From Branchiostoma lanceolatum (taxonomy: Eukaryota; Chordata; Leptocardii; Amphioxiformes; Branchiostomatidae): a stretch of DNA of 64,000 bases. The notes beneath the pieces are model-generated. The model was not told the origin of the DNA, searched no databases, and worked only from the letters and a program-made list of their open reading frames with translations. Shown one piece after another: positions 176-63,208 of the stretch. The stretch lies in assembly GCF_035083965.1 (NCBI RefSeq), contig NC_089735.1:11445001-11509000 (forward strand). Reading direction: 5' to 3'. The translations under genes and the position numbers were made by a program. Position 1 is the stretch's first letter, and the number at the start of each line of letters is the position of its first letter.

Positions 176-3100
176 CACTCTACAAGGAAGTTCTTGACAG
201 AGCGGCAGGCGTATCCGCCATTGCTACCAGACGACAACTGGCTAACATCCGGGACATGGCTTCGAGTAACCCGGATGGAGCTGTTGACGTCGTCACGCTA
301 ATGCGCAGAATCACGCTGGAAATCGGAAACCGGCTTTTTCTGGGTGTCAACATTGAAAATGGTAGCATTCTTTAGATATTTTGTCATAGATTTGTATCTG
401 TGCGAAACTATCAAAAATGTTGTTACTTTGAATTGAACAATACCTGAAACATACCAGCCATAAAGCATTTTCTAGAGCTGTATCAAAGTTCTAGATCTGT
501 TTGGCAAAATAAGTGCTTTGGTCAACATAGACGTTTCCATCTTAGAGACTTTCCTTTGAATTAACTACAGTTTTTCATGCGACAAGCATGCAACATGATG
601 CACAGATCAACAATGGTTTTATACTTTGCCATTCACCATGATTTAGATCTGGAGGTGGTGAACAAAATCAACGGTTATTTCGCTGCTTGGGAGTTCTTCA
701 TGATACGACCCACGGTGCTGCAGCTGGTATATCCCAGCCTGTACAGGAAACACAAGGCATCGGTGTAAGCGTTTTCTATTTGTGCAAAGTTGTTGTCATT
801 AAGCTGCATGTAATGAATTGAAAGGATAACGATGTTGAATGGTACGCAGAATTACAACATAAGAAAATTCATGTATTTCTGGTCAAAGCAGCTTACGAAT
901 GAGATGATTACTGTCTTGTCTGATCTTCTTCATCAACTGATCATTAAGTAATTTTTTCTAGCATGAGGAGATGAATCTCACTTGTACGTCTTTCCAGACG
1001 AATCTTCTAAGATCTTCTTCAATTATACTGACCCACAAACGTGCATCACGTGACTAAAGGTATTTTCTTTTCAGGAGAGCTTTGCAAGACGTAGTAGGCA
1101 AACTGGTGGATAAAAAGAGGGCCGTCATGAATGGAGACGAGGCCGAGGAAGAATTCAGCATCCCCAAAGGCGAACATGACTTTGCCGCTGCACTCATCGA
1201 GGCGCAGGTAATCACGTGTTCATCACGTGTTCATCACGTGTTCATCACGTGTTCACCACATGTTCATCACGTGTTCATCATGTGTTCATCACGTGTTCAA
1301 AATATCAAACATCAGGAAATCACGGAGTCATCACGTGTTTAAGGATACTCTACCACCATTGTCGTTCCAAAAATATAATAGAAATATTCGAATGACTGAA
1401 CAAAGATAGTAGAAAACAATAAGCGATTCATAATGTGTAAGACCGAAAGCCAACAAAATCTTGTCACGTCAAATATATCAATTGTATAGGCTGCTAATAA
1501 AAGAGGCAATAGGTACATGTCTACACTATTCCGATGATGTTACTGAAAAACAATTGCTAGAAATAATACACCAGGCCAAAATTTAGCAGCGAGATAGGAA
1601 AGCCTTATCACTGCAATGTTGTGATTGTGTCCCTGTGATAAACAATATGTATATGTCATACTTTATCCATCACTAATACCAGTTGTTTGTTCTGCAGGAA
1701 AGTGGTCAGTTGTCCGCCTTCTGTGTTCGACAGTGCATGACAGAAATGCTGGTGGCCGGTCCGGACACCATGTCGGTCAACATCTACTTCATCCTGCTGC
1801 ACATAGCCGAGCATGGTCTGGAGGACGGGATACTTGCTGAAATCAGGGAAGTTGTCGGTACGTATAATCAATTTCTTACAGGTTTGCGATTGCAAAACCT
1901 ATAAGATTTCTTCGGCGTTCATGAGTTATACTCTCCAACAGATAAATGAGTCTGTCCGACTGTTTTTTTTTAACGTTTTCAGGCGTTTTTGTCCCGTTTT
2001 CTTAATGTCTGTGTTGCGACATAAAGAAAACGGGACAAAATTTGGAAATCCCGGCAAAAACGCATAAAACACGTTAAAACCAGCTGGACCCATTCCTCTG
2101 CTTGGAGAGTACATGAGGGCCGCCATATTGGATTTTATGAGGTCGTGCTCGTGCCATCTTGTTTTGGATTGGATTTGATTTTTCACCGAGTAGAGTTATA
2201 TCGACAATCAAACCAGTCGACATATCCTTTTGCATATACTTCACCCTACTTTATTTCCATTTGTCTATTTGTACCTACATAAAGGTATGGAGTTAAATGA
2301 CAATGATTAGTAATTAACACACAAACTAAAGATGATAAAGTCAGTGACAAAATAGATCTTGTTTCCATTGTACAAAAGATTGATCTCAAAATGCTGCATG
2401 ATTTCCATTTAGGAGACAGAGATCCAACGAGAGAAGATCTCAACAAGATGGCCTTCCTCGATCACGTGATCAATGAGAGCATGCGCACAAGGCCAGTGGT
2501 CACTTTCGTCATGCGCCATGCTGAAGAGGAAGATCACGTGGACGGTTACGTTATACCGAAGGGGGCCAATGTGATTGTCAACTTAGTTGCCGTGCACCAA
2601 GACCCTCGTCACTTTGCCGAGCCTGAAAATTTCGATCCAGATCACTTCAAAGAAAAGGTTAGGAATTGAAACAAGCACCATACTATACTCTCATGCATTA
2701 CAATCTGAATCTGAATCGGTAAACCGGCATAACAATCCTTCCACGTAATACACCACCTTCAAAGGCACGCAGCTGGTTACATCACACCAAACGAGTTGTC
2801 ACACCTAAACCATTCATATCTAACTGTAACTGTCGTTTGAAGCTATCTCATTAACAGGCCACGTCTAATTATTTGATAGCAACTTGTTCCATTCTGCTGT
2901 ATTTTCCCACAGAAACAAATTTTTAACGCGTCGATTGTGGGTTGATGATAGCAGTAATGAACAATGAAGATATGATAAGAGCTGTTTGCTTCAACCACAC
3001 AAAAAGCTGTGTTGATAATCTAAACGATAATGTTTCGTTTCAGGTGCCTTCTACCCAGTTCATGCCGTTTGGCCTCGGCGTTCGCTCTTGTGTGGGCCGA

Positions 3101-3265
3101 ACCATTGCGCCCGTTCAGATGAAAGCTGTCCTCATCACGCTACTGCGCATGTACCAACTGTGCCCGTCACGTGATCACAAGAGCCTCGATGTGAGCCGAA
3201 ACCTATCCGAGCACCCCACGGAGCCTGGCTACATGTTTCTGTACCCAAGGGTGGAGAAAATCTAA
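176..3265 (+). CDS. CYP19: Cytochrome P450 family 19 (aromatase), 5'-truncated by window edge
   Basis: Aromatase converts androgens to estrogens as an ER-membrane haem monooxygenase. Visible coding exons are 176-361 (5' boundary uncertain; 201 is an alternative acceptor), 647-764, 1075-1207, 1698-1857, 2413-2657 and 3044-3265 (stop TAA). All junctions are AG/GT and the phases join in frame. Diagnostic motifs are the I-helix AGPDTMSV with the aromatase-type Asp-Thr pair (vertebrate AAPDTMSV), the K-helix ESMR (ExxR), the meander around PENFDPDHF, and the haem loop FGLGVRSCVGR with the Cys thiolate ligand. The segment NKINGYFAAWEFFMIRP parallels vertebrate KIQGYFDAW. The N-terminal membrane anchor and roughly the first 170 residues must lie upstream of base 1. 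No inactivating change is seen. Assignment to CYP19 rather than a generic P450 rests on the I-helix and the overall alignment. A possible poly(A) signal AATAAA lies at about 4517. Confidence 0.9.
1208..1345. repeat. Tandem 11-bp repeat with CACGTG E-box palindromes in a CYP19 intron
   Basis: Starting at the splice donor of the exon ending at 1207, the unit TCATCACGTGT is repeated about eight times, with two degenerate copies (CACATG and CATGTG cores). One further CACGTG lies near 1335. CACGTG is the canonical palindromic E-box core for bHLH factors. Whether it is functional or only a minisatellite cannot be decided here. The array keeps the reading frame open past the donor, giving a spurious extension. 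Confidence 0.8.
1967..2079. repeat. Short palindromic MITE-like element in a CYP19 intron
   Basis: Two arms of about 45-50 bp fold on each other: the left arm contains GTCCCGTTTTCTT and the right arm its complement AAGAAAACGGGAC, with AACGT..ACGTT-type ends. No coding content. A foldback or MITE remnant is inferred; no target duplication was identified. Confidence 0.5.
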
Positions 3266-6545: not shown

Positions 6546-6878
6546 AGTGCTGCAAACCGTATTAAAGACACCATACCTAATACAGTAAACGTTGGTTTTC
6601 TGTCGAAAGCACATTTCCTCTGATCCACCGTTACGTTTTATGTATTCCTCACATCTTCGCATTATTGATGTCAACGCGCTACCGATGGTCCTCGTCACCT
6701 AATAACCACGACTCAATAGACCTGATTTTAATCATATTAACCAACTGGGTCAGTGGGTTTTCTAGGATTATAAATGATACGACTGAAAATGTATTTCTCC
6801 GCCATATGGCCTTCGCATATGCTCTGCTATTCAGTAGTTCGTGGCTTGACTTCCTTTGATTATCGTGTCTCTTTCTGG

Positions 6879-8316
6879 GTCCCCCGAAAGTGCGAAATGG
6901 AACGAAATGGAACGAAATGGAACGAAATGGAACGAAATGGAACGAAATGGAACGAAATGGAACGAAATGGAACGAAATGGAACGAAATGGAACGAAATGG
7001 AACGAACTAAAACATATGTAACATTATGAAATGAAATACCAGGAGATAGCGAAATATAAAGAACGTTGTAACATTCACAGTAGACAGGAACAGGAAGTAA
7101 ATACATGATATAACGTGTTTTATTTCTTGAATCTGTTTGATAATAGTAAATACAACGTTTTTGCCGCGTTTGTGTGGCTAGATTCTTCCCTGAAAATGGG
7201 AGCGCCGCGTGCAAAGAGATCCACCGCTCTTCCTTTGTGTTTACCAACTATCTGCAAATGAACAGCTGAAAATAGCAGGGAAAACAAGCAAACGGAACTG
7301 AGTATCGAAGTAAGGGCTAGATTATACAGAAGTTGGTGGTAACATTGCATCTCATAATTCACCAAGAGAGAATGAGGCAAGCGTAATTTCATTATTCATA
7401 CAGCGTGTTTGCGTGTTGCAAATGGAGCCCCGCATGCAAATGAACCGCCAATGTTGCCAGCGCATCGGAACTGTGCACGTGGGCCGGCGTGCTACCGACA
7501 GGTTGAATCAAACTCCGACTTCAAAGTTTTATTTACAAACGGTTTTAGTCCATAACTAATACGTAGCTGCATATCTCCGCAACAACGATTTTTATACAAC
7601 CAATTGTTCGGCTGGTCGGCTGTCGGAGAATGGACCCTTCCGTTAATGACATTTCACACTCCATTCAATCACGGACATGGACTGAGAACTACCTCTGAAG
7701 ACATTTCTGCTTCCTTGTTCACGACAAAACAAAGGGAGGGTGTGAACGAGCAGGACATGTATTTCACAGATCACACAACACGCAAACACGCTGTATAAAT
7801 AATGAAATTACGCTTGCCTCATGCCCTCTTGGTGAATTATGAGATGCAATGTTACCACCAACTTCTGTATAATCTAGTCCTTACTTCGATACTCAGTTCC
7901 ATTTGCTGGTTGTCCCTGCTATTTGCAGCAGGTCATTTGCAGATAGTTGGTAAAATCAAGGAAGAGCGGCCGAGCTCTTTCCACGCGGCGCTCCCATTTT
8001 CAGGGAAGAATGTAGCCACACAAACGCGGCAAAAACGTTGTATTTACTATTATCAAACAGATTCAAGAAATAAAACACGTTATATTATGTATTTACTTCC
8101 TGTTCCCGTCTACTGTGAATGTTACAACGTTCCTTATATTTCGCTATCTCCTGGTATTTCATTTCATAATGTTACATATGTTTTAGTTCGTTCCATTTCG
8201 TTCCATTTCGTTCCATTTCGTTCCATTTCGTTCCATTTCGTTCCATTTCGTTCCATTTCGTTCCATTTCGTTCCATTTCGTTCCATTTCGTTCCATTTCG
8301 CACTTTCGGGGGACCG
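6879..8316. mobile_element. Long-TIR foldback transposon with mirrored 10-bp satellite arrays
   Basis: The element has two inverted arms of about 540 bp (6879 to about 7420 and about 7777 to 8316) around a unique centre of about 355 bp. Termini are GTCCCCCGAAAGTGCG on the left and its complement followed by CG on the right. Just inside each end is an array of eleven copies of a 10-bp unit, CGAAATGGAA on the left and TTCCATTTCG on the right. The direct repeat CTCTTTCTGG flanks the element (6869-6878 and 8317-8326) and looks like an 8-10 bp target-site duplication. Such a length suits hAT-like or Mutator-like non-autonomous elements, but the superfamily is unresolved. No transposase was found; the ORFs at 6831-7247 (-) and 7802-8431 (+) are arm translations of each other. 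Confidence 0.85.
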
Positions 8317-30876: not shown

Positions 30877-32018
30877 CTACCCCCTGATGACTTGGAACAA
30901 CCCAGTTACGAGAAACGGCAGTAGGACAGCGAGGACCCCTGTCGGTTTGGTTGCGCCATTGCAGCCATCGCTGTCACAGGTGGTGTAGCAGGTCTCAAAG
31001 TCGTCGTCACCCTTGCTGCAAGTGTGGGACACACTGGTCGCCGAGCAACCACGGTCAACGGCCGCAGCTTTGTCTGTGAAGAAATACGAAGAACTTTTCT
31101 TCCAGATCTAGAGAAAAAACCCAGAGATAATCGGATCCGATCTTTTCCGAAATGTATTTTTTCCATGAACACATGCTTACCCTTCAAACAAATCATGAAA
31201 TCATATTCCTGTTTAAAACACATTACCTACTCAATATATTAAAATCAATAGAAATGGAAATTCTTAAGAAAGGATCTCACCAGAAGCTAGGTTCTTGGAA
31301 GAATACTTGACGTAGCAGTATTGCTCTCCACCGGGGCACTCGTATGTCTTCATGTTGTACCAGTACGGGTACATGCAGTCGCTGTCTCCCCTTATCGTGT
31401 AACCCCAGATACCCACACAGGTAAAGCACTTCCTTCCCTCGACTGTTGGGGCAGTAAGCAAGCAAGAAAGATTTAATGATATATACATGTTGATAGAGTA
31501 CTCAAATGACTGTGTATCCCTGTTATATTGTATCTGACCCTTACTTCTTCCCTCATGACCTCAATGAAAAGCGGCCTGCGTGCCGATTTGAGCTTATCAT
31601 GAATAAACAAAGGTTCAAACAAAAAAGAAAGAAAGAGAAGATATGACTCTGTCGCCGCCGTTGTGCCAGAGTGATCGCTCAAAATATTGTGATAGCAATG
31701 ACAAAACACTGTTTTTTCATTCTATATGTATAACATAATTTTATCGCACATTGACTTTGCAACAGATACCTGCGCATTGTCATACAAGTAGAAACCTGCA
31801 CTTTTATGTCTTAAAAATAGATACCTACACTTTGATTTAGAAATAGATATCTCCACATTGTCTTAGAACTACTCAGATATCTTGAACAGTGGACGAATAC
31901 CGTGGAACAGGTGAGGGAAGTAAATATGAAAGGACAAACTCAAAAACCTACCTGGGTTGTCCAGAATCATCAGAACTAAGAGTAAAGCTGAGGCAACGAT
32001 AGTTTTCATGTTGGCCAT
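30877..32018 (-). CDS. Ly6/uPAR-like small secreted, probably GPI-anchored protein (copy 3)
   Basis: Three exons on the minus strand: 32018-31952 (signal peptide MANMKTIVASALLLVLMIL), 31442-31281 and 31073-30877 (stop TAG), predicted 141 aa; both introns phase 1. The CxxC exon reads VEGRKCFTCVGIWGY, and later cysteines include ECPGGEQYCYVKY. The terminal exon carries AAVDRGCSATS, the spaced C..C pair in ETCYTTC, GCN, then a hydrophobic tail (GVLAVLLPFLVTGLF), fitting a Ly6 domain plus GPI signal. More diverged than copies 1 and 2, yet it keeps the 197-nt terminal coding exon and the DRGC motif. It is divergently arranged with RING-A; 886 bp separate the two start codons. Confidence 0.75.
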
Positions 32019-32904: not shown

Positions 32905-35807
32905 ATGGACGACCTATCGCCAGCCACCGCAGCAGTGGCTCCGCACGGAGACACAGACGAACGGCTGGATCTTGGTGAAAAGCCGGAAGGAGGTTTAGAT
33001 AAGGAGGAATGTACAGAACCATCCATGGAGAGAGCGTCAACTAACACCGAAGATAAGTCCCCAAACTTGAGTTCTGTTGACAGGAAACAAGCCGGGTCTG
33101 GAGACTGTACTGAGTTTGCGGCGTTCGTACCTGAAAATGATAGTCAGTCTTCAGCAGAAAGTAGTGTAGACGAGGCCGTGCTTGACAAAGAGGGAACGGA
33201 CCATTCCGTTGATCCAGGAGGCATAGCCGCGTCAAAACCAAAAGCATCAAACAGTGACACAAACTTTGAGGAAACACCCATAATTTCCGACACAGAACAA
33301 GAACCAGCGTGTACGGAGAAATTGGCCATTGCGGAAGGCTTAGCAGAAGCGAAGGGAGCGGAGAAATCAAATGAAGATAAGCTGTCAACAGTTTCTGACA
33401 AAGGTGCCCCTCCCCAGGACGACTTAGGAGGCGCATGCGCCGCACCACCGCGTATAAAGAGTACAAAGGACGATCCACGAACTGTCGTTGACTTTGAAGA
33501 CGAAATGGAGCTTTGGTTATGGATGAACAACATCATTGATCAGTGCGGGGACGACGTTATAGAGGAACAGGACTATAGCCTTACCGAGTTGGTTTGTCAG
33601 ACGACAGGAGAAGAAAAAGATGGCGACCAAAATGAAGATGGCGCTTCGATGGGAACTTTGGAAGCAGGAAGAAAGAGGACTGAAGACGACATGCTTCACG
33701 AGAAACTGAACATCCGCCGACAGGAGTTTGATAGAGAGTTGTTACGCCGTGTGACCATCCGCGCATACGGTAGACACCTCCCGCGAGGGATCAACCCGTC
33801 AGAACTCGGACACTACTTCTTCGAGGTCCTACCCGAGTTGTTTTCCCGCATCGCTTGGTTCGACGCCTGCTACACCAGAGTTGAAATGAACGCACCTGGC
33901 GATTTCAACACCTTTTCTTTGTTCATTGTCCCTGGTGTCGAGTTCTGGGGACACATTCCGCTTCCTTTCCCCTTGGAGACCAGGTTAAGTCTTGGGCAGC
34001 AAAAGTCCCGTCTTGAAGAGCTGTCCCTCTGGACGGAGTTTAACCGCAAGTGTTTCGCCAAGACGTTCTTTTCCGTCGCAGACAAGTACAAGATCCCGAA
34101 ATTCTGGAAAGCTCAGGTTGCGAACTTCGACAAGATCGTCCTAGCGTTGAGAGAGAGAACTGCAGAGATGAAGAAAATCAAGAAGAAGGATCTCAAGAAG
34201 TTGGCGCCACAAAAGACATTTCTGCAGGTGTTTGAAGACACTTACGAGAAACTTAACAATGCATGCAGAAAACTACTATGCCCCAAGTGCAACCGTCAAT
34301 TCAATGAGGTTTGTCTTTTAAATACAAGTTAACTATACAATACATTTGTACCATGATACATCATCTTTGGAGAATCATGATATAGTTTTGTCGCACAATG
34401 CCCTAAGCCGAAGGGATATGCAACTCGACGTAGAAAATATTGACCTATTGCTGGATACGTATACAGGTGAATAACAAAAAAGGGGCTGACAACTTCGATG
34501 ACGAACAAGATACTAGTTTCGTTTTGTAGTCATTAATATTCCAACATGTCTCCACAAAAATCTCTAACTACATCTCCATTCTCCACCATTTGATTGTTTA
34601 GGCGGTTGCTTTCGAGGTGTGCGGGCACGAGTTGTGTACCGGCTGTGTTGCCGACTGTCTCCGCTCGGGGGCGCCTTGTCCCGTCTGTAACACCTCACTC
34701 AAGGGCACGCGCTTTCTACCGGTCTGGAGGTGAATTTCCATTCTTTAGTCTTAACGTTGTGTCAAAGACCAAATGTGGTTGGATAAAGGGACCTATGTAG
34801 AATTAACTTAGTCACGTCTCTCGTATAGTTAGTTCAGTCGTTTCTCTGTTCTAGTTGACATTTTCTAACTGCATTGTGAATGAAGGTACTCTATGACTAT
34901 TTCAAAGAGGTCAGTGTTTGGGGAAGGGGAGTCATTCCTATCCTAAATTGTCGAGAGGCCGTGAGTTTCGATCAAACTTTTTGAGTATCTTCTGTATTTC
35001 TGTAGGTTTCGCTGGCACGACGAAGGATTGAAACTAGAGGAACAAAAGACACCAGACAGCCACCCACCATCAGAAATCTCAACACAAGCGATGGGTTCAG
35101 GGAAGACTGAAGACACAGAGGTCGTCGACGATTCCCAGAAAGATTCCGAGGGCCGACACGATGATAGCACGGAAATTGTCGACGACATCCGAAAAGATTC
35201 CGAGGGCCGACACGATAATGGTACGGAGATTGTCGACGACACCCGAAAAGATTCCGAGGATCAACACGAACATGACACAGAGATCGTCGACGGCTTCCCA
35301 AAAGACTCCGACGGTCGACATAAAGATGCCACAAAGAATGTCGAAGACGCTTCAAAACACTCAGAGGCTCTACGACACGAAGTTGGAACGGAGATTGTCG
35401 ATGACACCCGAGAAGATTCAGAGGATCAACCCGAACATGACACACAGAATGACGACTGCTCCCCAAAAGACTCTGAGAATGGACAAAAAGATGTCACGGA
35501 TAATGTCGAAGACGCTCCAAAACACTCTGAGGCTCGACACGAAGTTGGCACGGAGATTGTCGACGACAACCGAGAAGATTCCGAAGGTCAACACGAAGAT
35601 GATACGGAGATTGTTAAAGGCGCAGAGGCTGGACACGAAGATGGCACGGAAATTGTCGACGACTCCCCAGAAGTCCCCGAAGATCAACACGACGATGACC
35701 GAATCGTTGTTCCGGAGCAGGACATCGGCGAAGTGTCGCAAGATTTCCAGTCGTTGAGCGTGGATGATGACGGGCTAGAAACTTTGTCAACTGCGAAGTG
35801 TGGTTGA
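32905..35807 (+). CDS. RING-finger (C3HC4) protein with acidic 18-aa repeats (RING-A)
   Basis: Three exons: 32905-34308, 34602-34729 and 35006-35807 (stop TGA), predicted 777 aa. The start is the ATG at 32905 (MDDLSPATAAVAPHGD); the ORF open to 32887 begins with TTG. Layout: an acidic, disordered N-terminus (1 to about 200); a conserved region at about 275-425 (LPELFSRIAWFDACY; FFSVADKYKIPKFW) shared with RING-B and not recognised as a known domain; a RING at 459-497 (CPKC, CGHELC, CPVC), presumably an E3 ubiquitin ligase; then about eleven imperfect 18-residue repeats of the form VDDTRKDSEGRHEDGTEI (about 550-745). The RING is split by a phase-0 intron after Glu468. RING-B has introns at the equivalent two positions. 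The substrate is unknown. E3 activity is inferred from the zinc ligands only. Confidence 0.87.
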
Positions 35808-36512
35808 TATTATCGTTTTAGCGTTTATCTATATCATCTAGGATCCATTGACTAAGTCAGCACGTCACGTGAACTGAGATGATAAACTTTTGTCGAACAG
35901 TATTTCACATGTTTACATTTTTCTAAAGCAAAACTGACCCACCAATCAAAAACAACCTGTCCTCATCAAAACAAGATGTTGCTGAACTTTAATCTTTTTT
36001 CAATTTAATTTCACAAGCACCTAAGGATATCAAACAAGTTGCTACAAAGCGAGTATGATACTTGCACAGTATAAAGTTCCGTGTCATGTATATGGGTCAG
36101 TCTATTCTATAGCATTTAATACATTCTTTTACTTTCTACCTATCAACATTGTGTCTTGTAATAGTTTTGACTAGACGTTAATGCTAGTCAGTCTATATGT
36201 ACAAATAACAGTAAATACAAATTTTAAAGTACTCTACCATCAACAAAGCCTTTGGAAGCTTAATTAAACATCGGTCAAAATTATCATATCAACAGTCTCT
36301 CACTTTATGATTACATCACTTTTCATGAATGCAACAAGAATACAAATCCCAGTATAAACAGAAACGTATGCTCAAATTTTTCAACAGCACAACGAATGAA
36401 CACACATCAGTAGTTTACCGCAAAAGATGTTTCAACTGTACGTATGTGCTACATAACACTAACAGTAACCCAACATTAGTACAGCCTATATACGAGGTTA
36501 TGTATGACTACA
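35808..36512. other. Shared 3' intergenic region of the convergent RING genes
   Basis: 705 bp between the stop codons of RING-A (+) and RING-B (-). AT-rich, no supported ORF; presumably both 3' UTRs. Confidence 0.6.
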
Positions 36513-39500
36513 TTAGATACTGCTCCTGCGGCTGCGCCTTGCCAAGCGCATGTTCTCCACCTCGGCACAAATCTGCGCGGCCGTCTCCAGGTCCATGTTG
36601 TTGATCTCCAACCAGCGCACGAAAGCCTCCATACTGGCGTTCCTCTGTGCGCATGCGTGGCACAGGGACATCTTGCACTCGTCACACATGAGCTGGTCCT
36701 CTCCAGATCGCGGTTCTTCGTCCAACCACAACCACGTGAACCTGTAGGGTTGGATAAAACAATTAAATACAGAACACAATGCGGTAAATATGATAGCGTT
36801 TCCTATATAAAGAGAATTCAGACTTGGAGTTCTTATCCAGTTGTAGAGTCTGAATTCTCATAATACATTGTTTACCTGGATGTCTAACCTTCACAAACGT
36901 ATAGCGTTTGCTCTACGTTAAACTAATGTGATTTCATAAGCCTCGTTTACTTGCAACGTGTCAAAACATTATCATTTATTTATGTACTTATCAATATTTA
37001 GGGTGGTCTCTTCAGTTAACATTGTAACTGATTTCCTAGGGAGCCCTTAAAATATTATAATTACAAGTGTGTGAAAGATACCTAACTAACAGAATAGTTC
37101 TTAATATGAATTCTTCATTACATCTTGTCATACAAAGAGAAAAGAAACGTCAGAAGAACATTCATACAGGAACAAACCATACAATAAAAAAATAACATGA
37201 AAATATGTTTCTTCAGTTATTCTCCTTGGAAGATTTTGACAAATACGCCATTGCAGTTCCAGTGACACATACCAGGGGGCCCAAAATCGACCTTGACCTT
37301 CCCAACACCTACCCACATACCAAATATCAATAGAACCCATCTAGACGTCCTTCAGTTACGGACGCACACACATACACACACGCAAACACACTCAAAACAA
37401 TATCGCCATGAAAAAGCCTTTTTTCATGGCGATAACAAACTTGAGCAGGCTAGAAGTAGAACAGACATGGAAGAAACAAACCAATTTTTGCAGCTAAGTT
37501 GTACATATTTATGAGATGATGACAGCTTTACCTGAGAACTGGTTGCAGGTTTGTCTCAACATTCACGCCCTCTTTACAGGTGGGGCAGAACTCTGTCGTC
37601 GTCGTCAGCCATTGGTCAAGACAGGAGGAGCAGAACACGTGACCACATCCGGTCAACCCCATGGCCTGATGGGAAGAGATAAAAAAGACAACCGAATTAT
37701 TTTAAGGTTTAAGTGCAAAATCTCAGCTTTCAAATGTGGAGCTTTGTTTTAATCTTAGTTATGTAGAAAGTATTTTTAGAAAGTCTAAAATTTCAACTAT
37801 TAGCCTGTCACAAAATGTTTTCTCGGTCTAATTTTTAAAAAGCAACATCATCAAACAAACAAGCAAACAAACTTGTAATAAACATCTTTTATCGCTCGTT
37901 AAGATTTCGGCGACTGAAGGAACCCTTGACGTATATATATGAATAAAGACGTGATGTAAGGATATGACGACAGCCCTTTGCCTTATATGTCCTTGGTGCT
38001 GAAAAGCTATCAAGACAGCAAGCAAACAGCCGTTATAATTCTAACCCGTTATTTAAAACGCACCCTATTTAAGATTTCGCGGCACAGCAAACACTTGAAG
38101 TCGGTGTCGACGGCCTCCACTAAGATGTTGTCCACTTCTGCCGCCACCTCGCGGAGCTCCTGTTGTACTGCAGGCTTGGTCAGCATTTCCTCCGGTAGAG
38201 CTTTGGCATCCTCCACCTAGATGCAAAAGTAAACACGTTCCTGTCTACGCTACCGGTAAAATGTCATGGAATCGAATGTCCGCCAAATTCTTCAAATTAT
38301 TTACTAGTAACTTTTTAGTTATTTAGCATCCAACAATTCACTACAACACATCCACATTGAATCTCCGGGCCATACCGTTTCACTGGACAAAGTCAGAATA
38401 CTGGACACTGAGCAGGACTACTTTATGAAAGGTGTAAATGAGGAGGGCCATATACATCAGGGCACTCCAGCCATCACTCAACAGAGACAGTGGGCGTTAT
38501 AAACTTCTTGGCACGTTTGACCAATTGTACGTCACGTATCCGCAATGACACGTGTCCATAAAGTCACGTGTCTGTAACTCTCGCGAGTTTATGTTCGGCA
38601 GTGATTGGTCATTATTGATCCTGAAGAAGGCGACAGTGGTCGTCGAAAATTCGATCCGTGAATACCTTATTGTTGGAAGAAAGTTTAGCAATGTGTTAAA
38701 ATTCACTACAACTTTACCTTCCGCTGCAAAACGTAGATGAGTCGATCAAAGTTGGCCAGCGGTTGTTGCCAGAACCTCGGTAGGGCGTAGGTGTCCGCCA
38801 CCGAGAAGAAGTGATTCTCGAGCTCCCTGCGCCAGGAACAGGCCAGGCCTAACAGCTCCTCTCGCTTCTTTCGCTGTTCTTCAACGGTGTGGATGTCCTA
38901 GGGGAGGGGAGGAATGGTATCATAAGGTGTCAGGACTTTGGGGGTGTGTGGGTGATGAGGTGTGGGGATGTGTCAAAGTATGATCGAATCAGAAAGACTA
39001 ACTCTCGCGGTCTACCGTGTATCTCTGACTACTCTCTAAGCAGAGGTTAGTGGGGACGATCGTGACCTTTTTATCCTCTGTCCCGTTTTTCGTCGGCTAT
39101 TTTCACTGCGACATGGGGCAGAGGTTAGTGGAGATGGTCGACGAAAAACGGAGGAAGAGGATAAAAAGGTCACGACCTTCTCCACTAACCTCTGCTTGGA
39201 GAGTATCTCTGACGTAACCGTAACCACACGTGATGTTGTCTACAAATTGATGCGCACACAAACATCAAAAGAAGGTACCTGAGAGATTTCTAGAATGATC
39301 TAACTTAGTTATCTATCATTGAATAATACACTAAAACCAACTTGTAAAGTTTCATATTAATTTTGATACTTTCAAGTTGTATTTTGCTGTCTTCTCTTAC
39401 TCTGTAGGGCTCCCATTACACATGCTTGTCTTTATACTAGTGACGGGTTACCGTGAATGGCTTCGGTAGGGAAGTCTTGTCCCGGAAGCGCCCATGTGGG

Positions 39501-41718
39501 ACGATGAAGAGTGAGACGTCCACGTCCACCTGGGGGTCATTGACCTCGATCTGGGCGTAGCGCGCGTCGAACCATGCGGCCTTCCTGAACATTGCAGGTA
39601 AGGTGGTGTAGACAAACTCTACCAGAATCTGGAATCGGACACAGATAAATTTCATATACAATCTGTATCTAAGTAAACCTCAAGAAAGATAATATAAAGC
39701 AAAGGAAATAATGTAACCGTACAATTCATTATGTTAAAAATAATGCTCAGGGGCGCAACCGGGGGAGCCATACGCTCAAATTTCAACCACTTATAACGCC
39801 CGGACAGACTCTTACAAACATTCATTCTTCCCCCGCACTATCCCCGAGTGGAACGCCCTGCCTGGCGCGGTTGTTACGGCTCCCACCGTTGAGTCATACC
39901 GCGCCAGGCTGGAGGCCTGCCCGCCTTAGCCTGGGACCTCCCCCCCCCCCCCCCTACTTTGCCCCTTGCGGGGTTGGGGGTTAAACAAGTTGAAGAAGTT
40001 AAAAATATACCTCTATGTCTATGGGGAAGTCCTTTCCGTACAGTTCTTCGATGATGCGTTTGCGGATTTCGCGGTCTTCCTCCCGGGTTAGTGGCTGTGT
40101 GGCCACGTCCACACCCCTCTCCGCACGGAACTCTTCCTCTATCTCACGTACAACCACCTGCTCCCATTCCCAGAACTCCTCCTCATTCCTGGGAACGAGA
40201 AGAACGAAAGGAAAAGAGTGAGGACCTTATTAATTAATTTACAATAACGGGATATGATGAAAGTTTATAATGAAAGTTTATTGCAAATTCCTGCCCGTAG
40301 GCTAATTGCAAGTACATGTAACGTAACATGACCTATTTACGTGCAGAACCTATTTACGTCCGGTTTGGCTCATGTCCACATGTCGCGGTGTATTATTACA
40401 AAGTCTGTTCTCATGAGCAATAAAGAACATCATAAGTAAGATCCTTAGCCATCTCTTTAATTTTTGCACAGCAAATCATAATGGCCATGCGTTTACCACG
40501 TGAACGCCACGTGCCGCGCATGTGGGGGGATTTTACAGATAAACATTGTTTTTTTCCATCGCGTTAAGCAAGTGGCCGGACAGACATAGTGATTTTATTA
40601 TCAATTGTCTGCAGACTACTTTGGACAGTTACTGTGCATTTTTTTCTGGTCTATGTTCTTCAAGCATAGCGCTAGAAGGGAAAAGACCGAGGTGGACGAT
40701 AATGGGTTACCCTAGCACAATTCTTCATCATATACCTCAGTATGAATACATGCTCGCACGGCGTTAAATAGGCGGAGAAAAACTTACAGACAATGCATTT
40801 TCTTTCTAGAAGAGCTGATATTTCTGACCATGGGTTTAAAATTTGGCTCTGTCCGTGCGGTTTTAAGATAAATACGTTTTGAATAAATCGGACGTAAACT
40901 GGTCATGTTACGTTACATGTATACGTAACACAGAGTGGACGGACAGATAATGATGAACAATATAACATATGGCTACTCTAGTCTTAACTACTGACACAAA
41001 AGCATGACAACCAGAGATGGCAGACTTCACCCCCTTACTTATGTACATGTATGACAACCTTGCATTGTGTAGGTTTTTGGAAATTACAGAAACACATACG
41101 CCTACAGACAGAAACACAGAGAAGCAGACATACAGACAGGTTAATATGATAATTCTTGGGGTGAATGCAATAGAAAAGGCGGTGAGGTAATGGTAATTTT
41201 GTTGTAACAATAGTTCCTCGTTTCATGAAAACAAGTGAAAGGCCAAACTTTTACTCCTCCTCAATAGTGACTCACTTGAAATTTCGGATCCTTTTTCTTG
41301 GGAAAGCGACTGCGCCTGCGTCCTCAGTGGTGCTGTCGAAGGAGGTCGAGGCGCTTGTCTGAGTCTCGAGATCAGATTCCGCAGACTCAAACGACTCTCC
41401 GTCGTCTTTTACCGAGAGGAAAGCCAGCTCTCGGCGACAAACTTCATCTTGGGCAGCATGGACTATCTCAGAAACAAAGTGTGCCAGCATCTGTGCGCTG
41501 TCATCGCTCTCCCGATGATCTGACAAAGCGCCGTTGGTTGGGACAGCATCCTCTTCAAGGTCTTCCACGACAATATCGGAAAGCTGGCTGCTGTCTCCTC
41601 CAGGACCGCTCGGGGGCGTGGTTGGGCGCGTCTCCTTACCCTTGTGCATCTCCAACATTATTTCCTGGGCGGCTGACTGAACTCCGGCGGGCGCCGGGGA
41701 AACATCGCACTCCTCCAT
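36513..41718 (-). CDS. RING-finger (C3HC4) protein, paralogue of RING-A (RING-B)
   Basis: Seven minus-strand exons: 41718-41276, 40188-40011, 39628-39452, 38897-38718, 38216-38064, 37665-37532 and 36741-36513 (stop TAA), predicted 497 aa; all phases join. The N-terminus (1-148) is acidic and Ser/Thr-rich. Residues of about 149-328 match RING-A (LPAMFRKAAWFDARY; FFSVADTYALPRFW). The RING spans 368-407: CLLC, 12 residues, CGHVFC, C, CPTC. A further Cys cluster CDECKMSLCHAC (441-452) may bind another zinc and is absent from RING-A, which instead has acidic repeats. The intron inside the RING (phase 0, before AMGLTGCGH) and the next (phase 2, before FTWLW) match RING-A. RING-B has three introns in the shared domain that RING-A lacks, suggesting intron loss or partial retroposition in RING-A. 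E3 ligase function is inferred. Confidence 0.87.
36812..36859. repeat. 13-bp-arm inverted repeat in a RING-B intron
   Basis: GAGAATTCAGACT at 36812-36824 is mirrored by AGTCTGAATTCTC at 36847-36859, with a 22-nt loop. It may be a short MITE remnant. Confidence 0.6.
37401..37434. repeat. Perfect 15-bp hairpin in a RING-B intron
   Basis: TATCGCCATGAAAAA, loop GCCT, then the exact complement TTTTTCATGGCGATA. The arms are too short for a microRNA precursor; it could be a tiny palindrome or cruciform site. Confidence 0.7.
39030..39205. mobile_element. hAT-like MITE in intron 3 of RING-B (minus-strand order)
   Basis: A 176-bp nearly full palindrome with ends TACTCTCTAAGCAGAGGTTA on the left and the complement of TACTCTCCAAGCAGAGGTTA on the right. 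A perfect 8-bp duplication TCTCTGAC flanks it (39022-39029 and 39206-39213). The 8-bp duplication suggests hAT-type mobilisation. No coding capacity. Confidence 0.88.
39765..39929 (+). mobile_element. Non-LTR retrotransposon reverse-transcriptase tail in RING-B intron 2
   Basis: The plus-strand frame 39792-39929 encodes RTDSYKHSFFPRTIPEWNAL then VVTAPTVESYRARLEACPP and a TAG stop, the typical LINE reverse-transcriptase C-terminus. A poly-C run follows. It is 5'-truncated and antisense to RING-B. Confidence 0.75.
40321..40913. mobile_element. 593-bp non-autonomous DNA transposon, hAT-like, inserted in a dispersed repeat
   Basis: Ends ACGTAACATGACC and its exact complement GGTCATGTTACGT, with repeated TTTACGTSC-like motifs inside both ends. 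TACATGTA flanks both sides (40313-40320 and 40914-40921) as an 8-bp duplication. The host repeat, split here, is uninterrupted at 19012-19115. No transposase ORF. Located in intron 1 of RING-B. Confidence 0.85.
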
Positions 41719-57300: not shown

Positions 57301-60300
57301 TAACTATCTATAGCTACATTTGTGTTTGCTATTTTCTGCCTGTCAAGTACTGTAGCGTTGTGTGGCGCAAGTGGTAGAGCGCGCGGCTGTCAAACAATGG
57401 GGCCCAGGATCGAGCCCGGGTTGTGCCCAGAGACATGTCCGAACTTGCGCCCCAACGTTGTGCCCTTGGGAAAGGCACTTAACAGGACTTTTCTCACTTC
57501 ACTCAGGTGTAAATGAGTACCTAGCTCATCTAGGGTTAGGGACATCCCTCGGATAGGACGTCAAATGGAGGTCCCTTGTTTGGGGAGAGCCACACCCCGC
57601 ACACGTAAAAGAACCCACCACACCTTTCGAAAAAGAGTAGGGGCATGCCCCGGTGTACGATGGTCCAAATCCTTCTGTCTGGAGTTGGTGTTTCACTACA
57701 AATCACTGGTAAACCTCCATCTCGTATCAGCCATACGGTGATTTACACCATTCACCCGGACGGGAGAACTACCGAATCCCCGTCTTGTATGACAGCCAAT
57801 GAAAGGGTATGTCACCCCATAAAAAAGGGCAGTATAACCCTAAGCAAGGGGCCAGTTCTGGCCTGTGCACGTACTACTACAACTACAAGTTCTGTAAATT
57901 CAGAAATGTTTGCAGGGATGTAATTTTGCAGTAGGGAGAAAATGGAGTGTTTGTGGTGGTTTTGAGTTCGTGTTTGAAACAATAGTAGCACTTCAGTCAC
58001 ACAATGGTGGTTTTAAGTTCGCAGTAACAGCGATCTTGAACCAGTTACGCTCACTCAAGATTAGCTCTTCAGTGAGCGTAACTGGTTCAAGATCGCTGTT
58101 TGCAATATGTTTTTATATCTTTATGCAAGCCTTTGTTTTCACTTTCCACTTTTCCAAATGTGTGTGATAGCAGGTATCAACACTTGAAAACCTTTACATG
58201 TTGTGTTACAGGCGAGTGGTGGCCTTGTGAAGGTAGGATGGGAGCTAGATCACTACAACGTGGCCCCGGTCCCCCTAGCGCTCACCAAAGGAAGTGCAGC
58301 TGCCGTTCTGACAACCTTTAACCACAAGCCAGTGGTGATAAAGGAGTACATGGTCGAGGGAGGGGAGGGAAGTGAGAGATCCAAGAAGGCCATCTTGTCA
58401 CGGGCAAAGGAGTTCCACGGCTTCAAGCACCCAAGCATCATACCTGTAAAGGCTATCTTCTTCAGCAAGGTACATGTAGGAGTAATCTTTCTTTTCAAGG
58501 GAGTGAAAGTGTGAAAGTGAAGTATTGTTTTTGGCTCCTCTATGTCTACATGTGTGCATTGGTGTGTGTTTGTGTGTGTGTGTATTGGTGTGTATGTGTG
58601 TGTGTCTATGTCTATGTGTGTTTGTCTATGTGTGTTTGTGTGTGTGTGCTTGCGTGTGTTTCCAAATGAACGCTTTAACATTCCTATCCTACTACTTTCG
58701 TCTGGGGGATTGGCAAACAGTGTTTAATATCTGATTACAGGTTTGCGTAGCAAAACCTTTTTGGATCCGTTGGTATGTGTGGTGGCCGCCATCTTGCTTT
58801 TGTGACATCGCAGGGTAGCCATACCATTTCATTGGGAGGGGTGTTTTTTGGGGTCACTAGGGTTCACTTTTTTTCTAACAAATCAGCTTTCACACATTCA
58901 ACTCAAATAAAAAGAAAATTCAATACCAATTCATATTTACAAAAAGACCCCGTAATCACTAAACTAACATAGCAAACCTGAAGTATATGTAGCACAAATA
59001 CTTAACTTTAGTTCGCTTTTGTCATCCTAAGTTGATAACCTGTTAACATGTGATGATTGTACTGTTGTCTCCCTGCAGATAATGAGACAGATGTATGTAC
59101 AGATGCCGTATTACCTGGGGTCCAGTCTGACAGAGCTACAGGACTCCAACCCTCTCAACAACTTGGTACGTAGTCAACTTCCATATTGTGATGCATCTGC
59201 TGAAAATGAAAATTAACCTTCCTTGGGCTGCCTAACCCCATAGCCAATACACATTTGGTGAGAAAAGGCTACCATACCACACTGATGGTTAAATCGAGGG
59301 GGAAAAGCTTGGATGACCTCTGAATGGATGTAATGGGTAAAATTTTATCAGTTTAAACTTTAAGAGAGAGAGAGAGAAAAAGGAAAGTGATCTCGAACCA
59401 GTTTAGCTCAAATGAACAGATGAGCTAATCTTCCACTGGTCGTGAAGACAGACGCTATGTACAGTATTTATAGGTTCATTGTACCGGGGAAATTCGGCTA
59501 GCTCTTTTTGACAAGCACAATGAACAGTGGACCACGGCTTAACGTCCCGTCCTAAGGACTGCGACCTTTTCCGGTAGCGTGCATGTCGGGTGAGCGACAC
59601 AGCCGGGATTGAACCGGGGGCTTCTAGATCCAGAGGCAAGATCGCTAACCACTGGACTATGCACGCTACCTGACTCAATGTAGAACTAGGTGCTCTTTTA
59701 TTCCTGAATCATGAAATATGTTTTTCATCGTAGGAGACGTTCTTTGTCCTGAAGGGTGTCCTGGAAGGGTTGTACCATTTGCACACCAGGGGTGTGTCCC
59801 ACGGTGCTGTCACCCCTCAGTATGTGCTTGCACCAGGACGGACTCAAGGCATGCTGGACAACTATGACTTCTCCAAGACACCGGTGGGCACCTTGTAATA
59901 GTTTGTTTCTTGTACTTGTGCCATGAATAGCTTTATAGTTTTAAAAAAAAGAGTTGAGCATCCTTATGTCATTGTCTTGAAAAAACTTGGTTAGACAGGA
60001 CCTGACAGAAAAGAAATGAGCCACAGTTTTGGAAACTAAACTTTGTAGATCCTCCACCTTTAAAAGATGGCGTTTATTTCTTCTGATGTTATGTGAAAAG
60101 CTGGTTGCGTACTTTCTTGGTTGGGGTTGCTGTAATGTTGTTGTTGTATATTTCCAATATGAAAAAAAATGAGGCAGGAAAATCCAAGAAATTGAATTGG
60201 CGTGGCGTCGGTAATTGATACGAAAATGACAATCCTGTGTCTGTTTTGCCCAAAACAGACCCAGCGTGCTGCCACACCGTTCCAAACACCCAACGGGCTG

Positions 60301-63208
60301 AGTTTCGTTCCTCCGGAGGTGGCGAAGGGTCAGCTGGCTTCAGCTGCCTCGGACATGTACCAGTTTGGGGTGCTGGTGCTGTGGATGTGCTGTCCTGCTG
60401 ACAACTTCACCAGCACTGACTGGGGTGTGCCCAGCCTGAGTAACATCACCTTGGTGAGTCAGCTGTATGGTATAGAGCACTGTGAATCTATATTTAGTAG
60501 GGGTGGATACCGGTTCGCTGGACCTGATTCGGACCTTTATAACATCCAAGAACCGAGTCCAAAAAACCTGAAAGCCAAAAAACCTGAGTCCAAAAAAACC
60601 TGAACAAAGTACAAATATATGTTTCTATTTTGTTTGATAAAAAGTGTTTTGAGTCTCCCCTCTGACAAAAAAGGCATTTAGAATAAGTGCAACATTCAAA
60701 TATCAAACACTTTTGTCCTGAAAGTCTTCTCATCAAGAAACTTTTATTGCCGTGCGTGTCTGTATTAATCCTCCATGCTTAATATTGGTCTAATAAAACA
60801 AAACATCAACTGGACAGGATCAGGTCCGGACCTGAACCTAAATCTCTGGACCTAAACTTGGACTTAGACCTTATTAAGCCGAACCGGTATCCACCCCTAA
60901 TATTGAGTATTTTCAACTTCACAGTTTTCGCAGTAACTACTGTAAGCTCATTTATTTTTTGCGAGGGCGTGATATAGACAGGAAAACATTTTTTACAGTG
61001 CTCTAAGGTCACAGTTGAAGCAATGCTGTAATACAGTAGTAATATATTTGAAAGGCATATCCACAGTTCATAGATTCGTGGTGGGCACCATGAAAAATGC
61101 AAAAATAAAACCATTGCAAACCATTTCTATCGCGACACACATGTTCTGTCTTCCACTGCATTACTACTGTTGTTTCAACGGTGAAAACAAATTTACTGAA
61201 ACTCTTTATTTAATTGTGCTGCAAAGTTTAATTGACATCCAGTCATTGTGTGGTAACTCTCTTTTATTTCCTATTTTGTCACAGGATGTTGATCTGCGAG
61301 AGTTCCTGCCACGCCTCCTGCAGGCCAACAGCTCTACCAGACACACAGCTGACAGGATACTCCAGCTCAAGTTCTTCAAGGAGCCTCCTACAGCAAAGGT
61401 CCCACTGCTGAGCCAGCCAAAGAGTCCTGTCCTTCCCAAGTCAGTCCAGAATCTCGGCAGTAGTAGTGTAAAGGAGGTGGCAAGTACACATCACCATGAC
61501 ATGGTTTCTACCAACCAGACAGGATCGTCTCCTACTCTAGCAGCATCCAAGCCAGTCTACTCCGCTCTACCTCTGCGTGCATGTTCATCTCCGCCTACTG
61601 GTAGTGAAGCCCCGAGAGCTGTACCAGGTCTTCCCGTATCACCCCAACCTCAGAGTCCTACTGTAAAGGATGGTCCTACCTCCTTGCCAAGACCTCTGTC
61701 TCCACAGCTTACAGCCATCCCTAGTATCAAGAGTTCACCTATGATCAATCTTGCCAACATCACCGCAGCAATCCTTAAGGAAACAGAGACGATCACGCCG
61801 AGCGCATCTGGTTTGGAAAAGGAAGGAGCGGAGTACAATTCTGTGAAGCAGAAATCATACGTAGGAGCTGGAGAGGTTCCTGTTTCGCCATCTGCATCAA
61901 AAGAAAGCCTGCAACAGCAACATCTTGATATCATGAAAGCGAAAGGGGCCAATGTTCTGATCCAGTATGGCGTCCCGTCACCTGACATGGCAATCCGTGA
62001 AGCAACCGGCGCAGGAAGCACGCCAAGCAGTCCAACAAAACCAACAGAAGAACCATCAGTGTGTGGTACAACTGACCTCAAGCCAAGAGCCAAGCCAAGT
62101 GCTGCAGTCGCCAACATTCCTGCCGACTCTGACACCTCTGAAACGTCCCTAGACGCAGACCAACCAGCACCAGCAGTCAATCCTACGACTTCTGGGTTCA
62201 CCACTTCCATGAGGGCGTCCCTGGAAGCAGCCTATGAGTCGCTGGGTCTGCTGATGTCGCCCACAAAACACTCATCTACATCCAGCCAGCAGTCTTCATC
62301 GGCTTCGACCAGCATCACATCCTGTCTGGAGGAGACAGCAGACAGTCCAGTCACAGAGGTGACTAGCTGTGAAATTCATGCCATGATTTCCTTTTGTCTA
62401 GTGATGACACTATTGCTTCAGCCGCAAGGGAGTGTAGTGTTGTTTGGCTTGTCAATGTGTGTGTGTTTGTGTGTTTCCAAAATCCTACTTTTGCATCCTA
62501 GGCATGTTGCATGATCAGATTAAGTGTCTGTGGGTAGTTTCTCTGCCTGTTAGCAACATTTCATGTGAGGGGAAACCTGTGCACGGTACTGTTGTTCAGT
62601 AGTGCAATGGATGATGACTACAGTACAGAATTAGACATAACTGTAACATATTTTCCATAAACAGTCCACAGATCTGAAAGCATAATGTTAAGTGCCTCTT
62701 CCAAGGGCATAACATTGGGGCCTACTAAGGATTCCAACTCAAGACCTTTAGATTCAACTACCGCTGCCACAAAATCATCATCATCGGTCAATATGCCAAT
62801 GCATTGTTGGGGCTATACCGCCTCTTTCCGGGTGGCATGCCCTTTCGTTGGTTTATACAAGTCGGGAATGCACCTGGTCTCCCATCCAGGTGAAAACAGT
62901 CCAAAGAAAGTTTACAAAAATATCTAACAATTTTTGTCCCCCTTCTTCAGTCCACAGATCTGGAGGCATCCATGGCTGCTACTAGTTCCCCTGCGTCCAT
63001 GTCCCCGCCCCCCTCCCCTCTCAGGACAACACCAGAGATGGTGGAGCAGCAGTCATCTCCCCTGACAGTAGGGATGGGCGGACTGTCCTCAAGCCTCACC
63101 GAGAGCCTGCCATCTTCGTACTTAAGCCCCAACGGACACCTGCCTGCCACGGTGGTAGACACAGGGTCGGATGGGCCTGGTGGGTTTGACAGTAATGTTT
63201 TTCAGTAG
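42355..63208 (+). CDS. STK31: STK31-like protein: RRM, Tudor, coiled coil, pseudokinase, Ser/Pro-rich tail
   Basis: Twenty-four exons: 42355-42453, 43674-43759, 44282-44366, 44794-44834, 45488-45704, 46764-46922, 48222-48296, 49063-49212, 49851-50059 (GC donor, uncertain), 51087-51222, 51875-52083, 52824-52998, 53513-53746, 54973-55005, 55223-55312, 55816-56037, 56502-56660, 57113-57289, 58212-58469, 59079-59165, 59734-59883, 60259-60453, 61285-62358, 62951-63208; about 1525 aa. Domains: RRM (about 20-97; RNP2 VFVGGL, RNP1 KVAFVRFF); three 17-aa repeats (123-173); extended Tudor (about 177-370; [15 protein letters not shown]); coiled coils (about 420-850); [11 protein letters not shown], matching human FPELPLLHPEI; kinase fold (about 870-1110); long tail. 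The VAIK-like Lys is kept (VVIKEY), but HRD reads HGA and DFG reads NYD, so catalysis is unlikely. STK31 is a germ-cell Tudor protein in mammals. The last exon could splice on at 63181 (GTGGGT). Confidence 0.92.
43380..43596. mobile_element. MITE family D, near-complete copy
   Basis: Ends TACTGTAAATGCA and its near complement TGCACTTACAGTA. The interior is rich in GTTCGCGGTGGTTTTATGTT and its complement, so the element is largely self-complementary. TA boundaries suggest a Tc1/mariner-type or related MITE. Intron 1 of STK31. Confidence 0.8.
43795..43868 (+). mobile_element. Short reverse-transcriptase tail fragment
   Basis: The frame reads [20 protein letters not shown] then PLSTVGAS before a stop, resembling the W-N-S-L-P region at the end of LINE reverse transcriptases. 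Very short and dead; intron 2 of STK31. Confidence 0.5.
44520..44735. mobile_element. MITE family D, second copy
   Basis: It shares ACTGTAAATTCAGAAATGTTC and AACTTAAAACCACC with the 43380 copy but is more diverged. Intron 3 of STK31. Confidence 0.7.
45845..46090 (+). mobile_element. Degenerate non-LTR retrotransposon 3' end
   Basis: The frame, with several stops, resembles retrotransposon ORF2 C-termini: [20 protein letters not shown] then [31 protein letters not shown]. The W-T-x-M-S/T-L and D/N-R-x-x-W-R pattern is typical. Intron 5 of STK31. Confidence 0.5.
46196..46640 (+). mobile_element. tRNA-headed SINE, family A, copy 1
   Basis: It begins GGCGTTGTGTGGCG with a degenerate pol III A box, then a B box around GAGTTCGAACC. 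The body contains TAGGGTTAGGGACGTCCCTC and CGTAAAAGAACCCACC. It aligns along its length with 57354-57842. Not a functional tRNA gene: there is no cloverleaf beyond the promoter boxes. Confidence 0.78.
47059..47340. repeat. Tandem cluster of the dispersed CTGTATCTGTATAGCC repeat
   Basis: Four to five imperfect units of about 50 bp (TCTGTATAGCCGGTATAACC, CCCTTCAGCGTAACACACC). Single copies of the same family occur near 2715, 8868, 26265 and 43935 (opposite orientation). Family type unknown. Confidence 0.7.
47428..47730. repeat. Five-copy 61-bp tandem array
   Basis: Units start at 47428, 47489, 47550, 47611 and 47672, each beginning AAATTGGCCGAATAGAGTG and ending GAGAGAGGGTCCAAG. They are more than 90% identical by eye. 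No spacer-repeat alternation, so not a CRISPR array. Confidence 0.92.
47825..48020. mobile_element. MITE family D, nested copy
   Basis: TACTGTAAATGCATTTAAG at the left and TAACAGTA at the right; reverse orientation to the 43380 copy. It sits inside the right arm of the 47387-48057 foldback element. Confidence 0.8.
49510..49806 (-). mobile_element. tRNA-headed SINE, family B, copy 1
   Basis: On the minus strand it begins GTAGCGTGCTTAGTCCAGTG with an A box (TAGTCCAGTGGTTAGCG) and B box GGTTCGATCCC. Its tail ends near TGAACCAGTTAAGCTCA on the complementary strand. Matching copies lie at 59385-59671 and 63933-64000. Intron 8 of STK31. Confidence 0.8.
53792..54751. mobile_element. pogo/Tigger-like non-autonomous element
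   Basis: Ends CAGACGAAGCCACTTAATTG and the complement of CAGTGGAATTCGCTTAACTG, with TA on both sides (53790-53791 and 54752-54753). The subterminal TTAATTGCAC/GGATAA words repeat. The TIR style resembles pogo/Tigger elements. It contains a partial family-D MITE at about 54238. No transposase. Intron 13 of STK31. Confidence 0.65.
56083..56200. repeat. (TG)n microsatellite in STK31 intron
   Basis: TG/TATG/GAG-interrupted tract just after the exon ending at 56037. A similar tract is at 58558-58661 after the exon ending at 58469. Both give spurious Cys/Val ORFs. Confidence 0.85.
56720..56905 (+). mobile_element. SINE family A-like partial copy
   Basis: A B-box-like GGTTCAAATCC precedes TGTGCCCTTGGGAAAGGCAC and GGATGAGACGTAAA, all shared with the 57354 copy. 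3'-truncated and diverged. Confidence 0.6.
57354..57842 (+). mobile_element. tRNA-headed SINE, family A, copy 2
   Basis: The head GTGGCGCAAGTGGTAGAGCG is a near-canonical pol III A box and GGATCGAGCCC the B box. The body matches 46196-46640, including CCCGGACGGGAGAACT and CCCATAAAAA. Intron 18 of STK31. Confidence 0.85.
57893..58020. mobile_element. MITE family D fragment
   Basis: CTGTAAATTCAGAAATG opens it and GGTGGTTTTAAGTTCGC closes it; only one arm is kept, and it abuts the palindrome at 58026. Confidence 0.55.
58026..58100. repeat. Perfect 30-bp-arm palindrome, 15-nt loop
   Basis: The left arm starts AACAGCGATCTTGAACCAGT (58026-58055) and the right arm (58071-58100) is its exact complement. 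It shares TTGAACCAGTTA-like words with the SINE-B tails at about 49520 and 59392, suggesting origin from them. In intron 18 of STK31, 112 bp before an exon. Confidence 0.92.
58739..59006 (-). mobile_element. Dispersed repeat (family E), reverse copy
   Basis: Reverse complement of 24828-25092 with good conservation: GTTTGCGTAGCAAAACC, GGTGGCCGCCATC, TTCATTGGGAGGGGTGTTTT, AACTAACATAGCAAACCTG. Intron 19 of STK31. Confidence 0.75.
59385..59671 (-). mobile_element. tRNA-headed SINE, family B, copy 2
   Basis: Same structure as 49510-49806, with head TAGTCCAGTGGTTAGCGATC and a B box with one substitution (GTTCAATCCC) on the minus strand. Confidence 0.8.

Follow-up and report, generated by a model that had tools for sequence, protein, structure and literature searches.

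The window, a stretch of 64,000 nucleotides from Branchiostoma lanceolatum, harbours two paralogous genes lying tail to tail, RING-A and RING-B, which according to their predicted products encode proteins that combine a RING with an accessory region lacking a name, the RING of one of them being degenerate. Our tentative reading, to which we give somewhat less than an even chance, is that RING-B would act as an E3 ubiquitin ligase and RING-A as a partner or regulator with a degenerate RING, while the block shared by both proteins would bind a partner or a substrate.

Gene models and locus organization

Both genes were rebuilt from the DNA (Table 1). RING-A is situated on the plus strand at 32905-35807 and comprises 3 exons encoding 777 aa, RING-B is situated on the minus strand at 41718-36513 and comprises 7 exons encoding 497 aa, and the translation starts at 32905 and 41718, respectively, were upheld on rebuilding. 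The two genes are convergent, with their stop codons facing each other across 705 bp (35808-36512). All eight introns carry GT-AG borders, the reading frames are open and every phase is consistent. The 468 stop-free codons of RING-A exon 1 have a chance probability of about 3e-13 per start, corresponding at the local composition to about 4e-8 such runs expected per window.

Table 1. Exons of the two RING gene models, with positions counted from the first letter of the window.
Feature	Position	Strand	Content	Basis
RING-A exon 1	32905..34308	+	aa 1-193 acidic low-complexity; aa ~194-455 shared block; N-terminal half of RING, up to aa 468	468-codon ORF and homology to RING-B
RING-A exon 2	34602..34729	+	second half of RING, completes C3HC4	AG/GT sites, phases 0 and 2
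RING-A exon 3	35006..35807	+	RFRW (RFTW in RING-B), then acidic tail with 18-aa repeats	
RING-B exon 1	41276..41718	-	acidic N-terminus, aa 1-147	pI 4.2
RING-B exon 2	40011..40188	-	shared block, upstream portion	alignment to RING-A
RING-B exon 3	39452..39628	-	shared block including AWFDARY and SLFIVP	
RING-B exon 4	38718..38897	-	shared block including FFSVADTYALPRFW	
RING-B exon 5	38064..38216	-	block end, N-terminal half of RING (CLLC)	
RING-B exon 6	37532..37665	-	second half of RING	Pfam zf-C3HC4_2 38.0 bits vs cut-off 27, spliced protein
RING-B exon 7	36513..36741	-	RFTW, then C-x2-C-x4-C-x2-C cluster, short tail	

The ends of both proteins are acidic and probably disordered, with a pI of 4.2 for each of the segments A 1-193, A 512-777 and B 1-147. 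Aspartate and glutamate make up 33% of the RING-A tail, which is encoded in part by a tandem repeat of 54 bp (18 aa) present in 9.0 copies at 35124-35614 with a higher-order period of 165 bp; by eye, the 18-aa unit reads approximately TEIVDDxRKDSEGxHxxx. The cysteine cluster in exon 7 of RING-B resembles part of a B-box or another zinc finger, with sub-threshold Pfam matches only. In the 705 bp between the genes no AATAAA was found on either strand. The variant ATTAAA occurs in a crossed arrangement, at 36263 on the plus strand for RING-A and at 36120, 36009 and 35993 on the minus strand for RING-B, so that the predicted 3' UTRs might form a natural antisense overlap.

Among the neighbours in the window, Pfam thresholds are reached by cytochrome P450 exons alone (2307-3265, plus strand, 2.6e-27 and 9.3e-13). 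They are followed by an inverted repeat at 6878-8315, the arms of which (6878-7418 and 7776-8315) are 96 percent alike and each hold 11.4 copies of a 10-bp satellite. Cysteine-rich ORFs at 30877-31560 on the minus strand look Ly6/three-finger-like by eye (Pfam sub-threshold, E 0.043). Adjoining RING-B, the plus-strand region 42355-62514 contains an ORF with the string VFVGGLP, which appears RRM-like by eye and has no Pfam match. The region also holds, at 60196-60603, a kinase fragment below the Pfam threshold (E 0.019); if these belong to one gene, it might be reminiscent of STK31/TDRD8. Neither tRNA genes nor Rfam families at the gathering score were found within the window, whose long spliced genes have the appearance of animal DNA.

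Common origin and age of the gene pair

The original prediction of a paralogous, tail-to-tail RING pair is borne out by the convergent models and by the protein comparison. BLASTP aligned RING-A 273-514 with RING-B 183-425 at 79 identical among 245 columns (E=4e-36), and about 180 of these columns precede the RING. The similarity of the block is independent of the RING: with the RING removed, A 193-456 and B 141-364 gave a Smith-Waterman score of 251, whereas none of 1000 shuffles exceeded 60. The similarity probably extends farther upstream of the BLASTP alignment, because a segment with the pattern F-x2-E-x-E-x-W-x-W (A 192-222, B 142-172) reached a score of 40, which was attained by 10 of 5000 shuffles. 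Two motifs had been proposed for the block. The second, FFSVAD-x-Y-x-[IL]-P-[KR]-FW, stands as written, and the first has to be corrected in one spacing, since in alignment register it reads [FY]-x(2)-LP-x-[LM]-F-x2-[IA]-AWFDA-x-Y with x(2) instead of x(3). By tblastn, no third copy was detected within the window (next best match E 0.48). No relatives were confirmed in viral contigs or in bacterial and archaeal genome contigs, as expected for an animal gene.

Two introns had been said to be identical in position and phase, which is confirmed by the alignment. One, in phase 0, interrupts the RING at codon 468 of RING-A and codon 377 of RING-B; the other, in phase 2, follows the RING at codons 510 and 421, respectively. 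Each pair falls in the same alignment column. These shared introns suggest a common ancestor of the two genes that already contained introns, so that RING-A would be no plain retrocopy. Equally, the block of RING-A was found to be uninterrupted where RING-B has three introns, after codons 207, 266 and 326 and all in phase 0; a further RING-B intron at codon 147 (phase 2) marks the upstream edge of the block. Either RING-A lost at least three introns or RING-B gained them. The single long exon of RING-A runs ungapped across the three junctions, its codon numbers differing from those of RING-B by 92 at each of them, which supports the predicted exon joining, and the sequence support for joined exons in both models can be regarded as good.

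At the nucleotide level, identity at the three codon positions amounts to 46, 55 and 30 percent in a local alignment of 392 columns, 121 of them identical, which is wider than the BLASTP alignment. Of the fourfold-degenerate sites, counted at identical residues whose codons share the first two bases, 8 of 49 agree. The silent sites between RING-A and RING-B are saturated and the protein core has been kept, which points to an old duplication and selection on the protein. It is very improbable that RING-A represents a decaying copy, be it a pseudogene or a mis-modelled gene, as its unusual RING and long repeat tail could be taken to indicate, since its 777-codon frame, splice sites and eight zinc ligands are all intact and its protein is kept relative to RING-B with silent sites at chance likeness.

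Sequence and fold searches with the shared block

The block had been described as matching no named domain, and profile searches of Pfam, NCBIfam and PHROGs agree with this. Nothing reached threshold in Pfam-A (searched with exon 1 of RING-A, the ORFs of six RING-B exons and the two spliced proteins), in NCBIfam (RING-A exon 1 and RING-B exons 2-7 individually) or in PHROGs (RING-A 33478-34308 and RING-B exons 3 and 4). The matches far below cut-off were Rer1 and Sec7-like HDS for RING-A and DUF240 for RING-B, none being common to both; likewise, the NCBIfam model lone7_assoc_B (E 0.015, 16 vs 35 bits) and phrog_19772 (E 0.22) were seen with the RING-A block and were absent for RING-B. A literature search covering titles and the beginnings of abstracts found no paper naming the block or the pair; as search strings, AWFDA retrieved papers unrelated by title, and FFSVAD and SLFIVP retrieved none.

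Searches against PDB sequences gave no significant match to the block for RING-A, RING-B or a joint profile of the two sequences. The best matches were SPEF1 for RING-A (E 0.46), SRP68 for RING-B (E 0.23) and, for the joint profile, Cas1 and beta-2-microglobulin (E 0.46 and above). The three lists disagree, hence these matches are likely due to chance. A calponin-homology assignment of the block via SPEF1 was discarded, since searches with RING-B and with the joint profile led to unrelated matches. Structure prediction with AlphaFold2 used parts of RING-A exon 1 and three trimmed pieces of RING-B (exons 2, 3 and 4), the exon 5 piece being omitted from the alignment rows since it had been misplaced by MAFFT. 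With so few rows, the models are of low confidence (mean pLDDT 39.1 and 39.9). The second model consists of two helices, three short strands and three helices, and can serve as a lead only. Foldseek with this model yielded 136 matches with E<=10, not one of them at E<=0.001; among the best 50 of the 136, E2 enzymes occupy ranks 1, 4 and 39 (E 1.1, 2.1 and 5.2; probability 0.15, 0.10 and 0.03). Coming from so poor a model, these E2 matches are no evidence for the fold.

The block is therefore unrecognized at the sequence level only, and it may possess a remote known fold. It is a realistic, if unproven, option that the block is a highly divergent version of a known pre-RING module, for example RWD/UBC-like as in RNF14 and RNF25 or calponin-homology-like, and no new fold. 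The order of helices and strands in the low-confidence model, the UBC fold of the E2 enzymes among the Foldseek matches and the weak matches of the SPEF1 CH domain to RING-A (E 0.46 and 0.72) could be quoted in its favour. However, fold matches are uninterpretable at a pLDDT of 40, the SPEF1 match was repeated neither with RING-B nor with the joint profile, and Pfam gave no RWD or CH match up to E 10 with the HMMER filters on. The more far-reaching proposal, that the two copies of the block are the first members of a novel domain family in animals and that the block serves as assembly module of a heterodimeric E3 with an active and a pseudo-RING encoded by convergent genes, appears improbable to us; it would apply to a new fold as well as to one hidden from sequence comparison.

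The two RING fingers

The C3HC4 RING follows the pattern C-x2-C-x(9-39)-C-x-H-x2-C-x2-C-x(4-48)-C-x2-C. RING-A has the ligand spacing C-x2-C-x12-C-x-H-x2-C-x2-C-x10-C-x2-C and RING-B the same with x11 in place of x10, so that each contains the eight ligands, and the common C-x2-C-x12-C-x-H spacing noted originally holds for both. The RINGs occupy aa 459-497 of 777 in RING-A and aa 368-407 of 497 in RING-B. Five Pfam RING cut-offs are passed by RING-B, best by zf-C3HC4_2 (1.4e-9, 38.0 vs 27 bits). RING-A passes one, by 0.6 bit (zf-C3HC4, 21.6 vs 21), and its best model by E-value is the BARD1-type RING (1.3e-4), which with 22.2 bits stays under its cut-off of 35.

Productive contact with an E2 was judged from three positions, a hydrophobic residue at C1+2, a large hydrophobic residue in the central helix (frequently W), and a basic linchpin after the last ligand. 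RING-B shows L, W and K there (CLLC ... CLDQW ... CPTCK), as expected for a competent RING. RING-A shows K, C and N, none of them of the expected kind. Its sequence C-P-K-C ... CVADC ... CPVCN resembles that of BARD1 (8grq_M), C-S-R-C ... CVSDC ... CPVCY, with R, C and Y at the same positions. The absence of the usual E2-contact residues from RING-A, which is not part of the original prediction, alters what the two proteins are likely to do. On these residues, ligase activity of RING-B is quite probable, and RING-A is rather likely to be catalytically impaired. The unusual residues of RING-A may be private to this species, and two sequences do not permit the ancestral state to be inferred.

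According to PMC11992055, the linchpin is a basic residue in most RINGs, the inactive TRIM6 and TRIM22 carry Gln at this position, and an active RING can be paired with an inactive one, as in BRCA1 and BARD1; against the preferred reading, TRIM32 has an active RING without a basic linchpin. In PMC12259006, the linchpin of BRCA1 is K65, with K65A being ligase-dead, and the exchange L51W raised activity. RING-A has lost none of its eight zinc ligands and keeps the proline behind the seventh one, as would be expected if RING-A and RING-B were independent active E3 ligases that diverged in substrate, the departures at the E2 contacts of RING-A being tolerated. For BRCA1, we take L51 to be the helix-W position.

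In the PDB list of RING-A, BARD1 8grq_M ranks fifth among the best 40 (E 9e-4), behind a RING2-BMI1 chimera, RNF4, TRAF6 and TRIM21, and CBL outscores BARD1 with the longer query. Apart from BMI1, all of these are active ligases. With four matches ahead of BARD1, the likeness between RING-A and BARD1 is one of residue pattern and not of overall score, and the matches scoring like or above BARD1, including RNF4, CBL, TRIM21 and TRAF6, speak for two active ligases as well. Against two active ligases stands that the three E2-contact positions of RING-A are jointly unusual and follow the BARD1 pattern. We consider two active ligases possible but somewhat unlikely. The PDB matches of RING-B include RNF4, AMFR, RNF8, Arkadia and RING2. 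An IBR domain behind the first RING, as in RBR ligases, was not detected at cut-off: in spliced RING-B the Pfam models IBR and IBR_1 gave 8.8 vs 24.3 and 8.6 vs 27 bits, and in the exon 6 ORF alone IBR_1 gave 19.2 vs 27 bits and was located over the RING itself.

Comparison with known systems and proposed function

The preferred reading, an active RING-B with a degenerate RING-A beside it, finds its closest parallel in BRCA1-BARD1, where likewise one RING has the usual E2 contacts and one lacks them, as judged here by a sequence criterion only. At C1+2, RING-A has K and BARD1 has R; both have C at the position of the helix W, and neither carries a basic residue behind the last cysteine. Unlike BRCA1-BARD1, RING-A and RING-B lack Pfam matches to BRCT or ankyrin, are paralogous throughout block and RING, and their pairing is something we infer. 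Ligase/pseudoligase pairs of the TRIM49-TRIM51 type, as presented in PMC11992055, are also related proteins of which one RING is inactive. In the present pair, in contrast, the conserved block precedes the RING, and with Pfam neither a B-box at cut-off nor any SPRY match was detected. The TRIM/RBCC arrangement of an N-terminal RING with B-boxes is thus absent, the RINGs being internal; an ANCHR-like B-box match to the RING-B exon 7 ORF (E=0.028, 15.0 vs 27 bits) did not recur in the list for spliced RING-B.

RNF14 and RNF25 are RWD-RING proteins, and they share with our pair a module ahead of a RING situated well within the protein, but a Pfam RWD match exists in neither RING-A nor RING-B. Single RING ligases of the RNF4 type are similar insofar as RNF4 is the top PDB sequence match to each RING (for RING-A with the longer query), but this match is restricted to the RING. 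RNF4 acts as a homodimer, which speaks against the preferred reading.

An old inverted tandem duplication probably gave rise to two RING genes sharing a pre-RING module of roughly 180-240 aa. The RING of RING-B would recruit E2~ubiquitin, and the shared block would, as a default reading, bind a substrate or partner. RING-A would activate E2 poorly by itself and, in the manner of BARD1 towards BRCA1, would serve as non-catalytic partner or competitor of RING-B, acting on it via RING-RING pairing or via the shared block. Direct pairing of RING-A with RING-B appears doubtful to us.

RING proteins with unnamed partner regions are common in invertebrate genomes, hence the pair is of moderate interest in this respect. 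After relatives have been collected, the block could receive a domain name of its own, and the split into an active and a degenerate member allows a clear experiment. If the pair works as read here, it would provide a further example of a ligase and a catalytically weak paralogue retained as neighbours.
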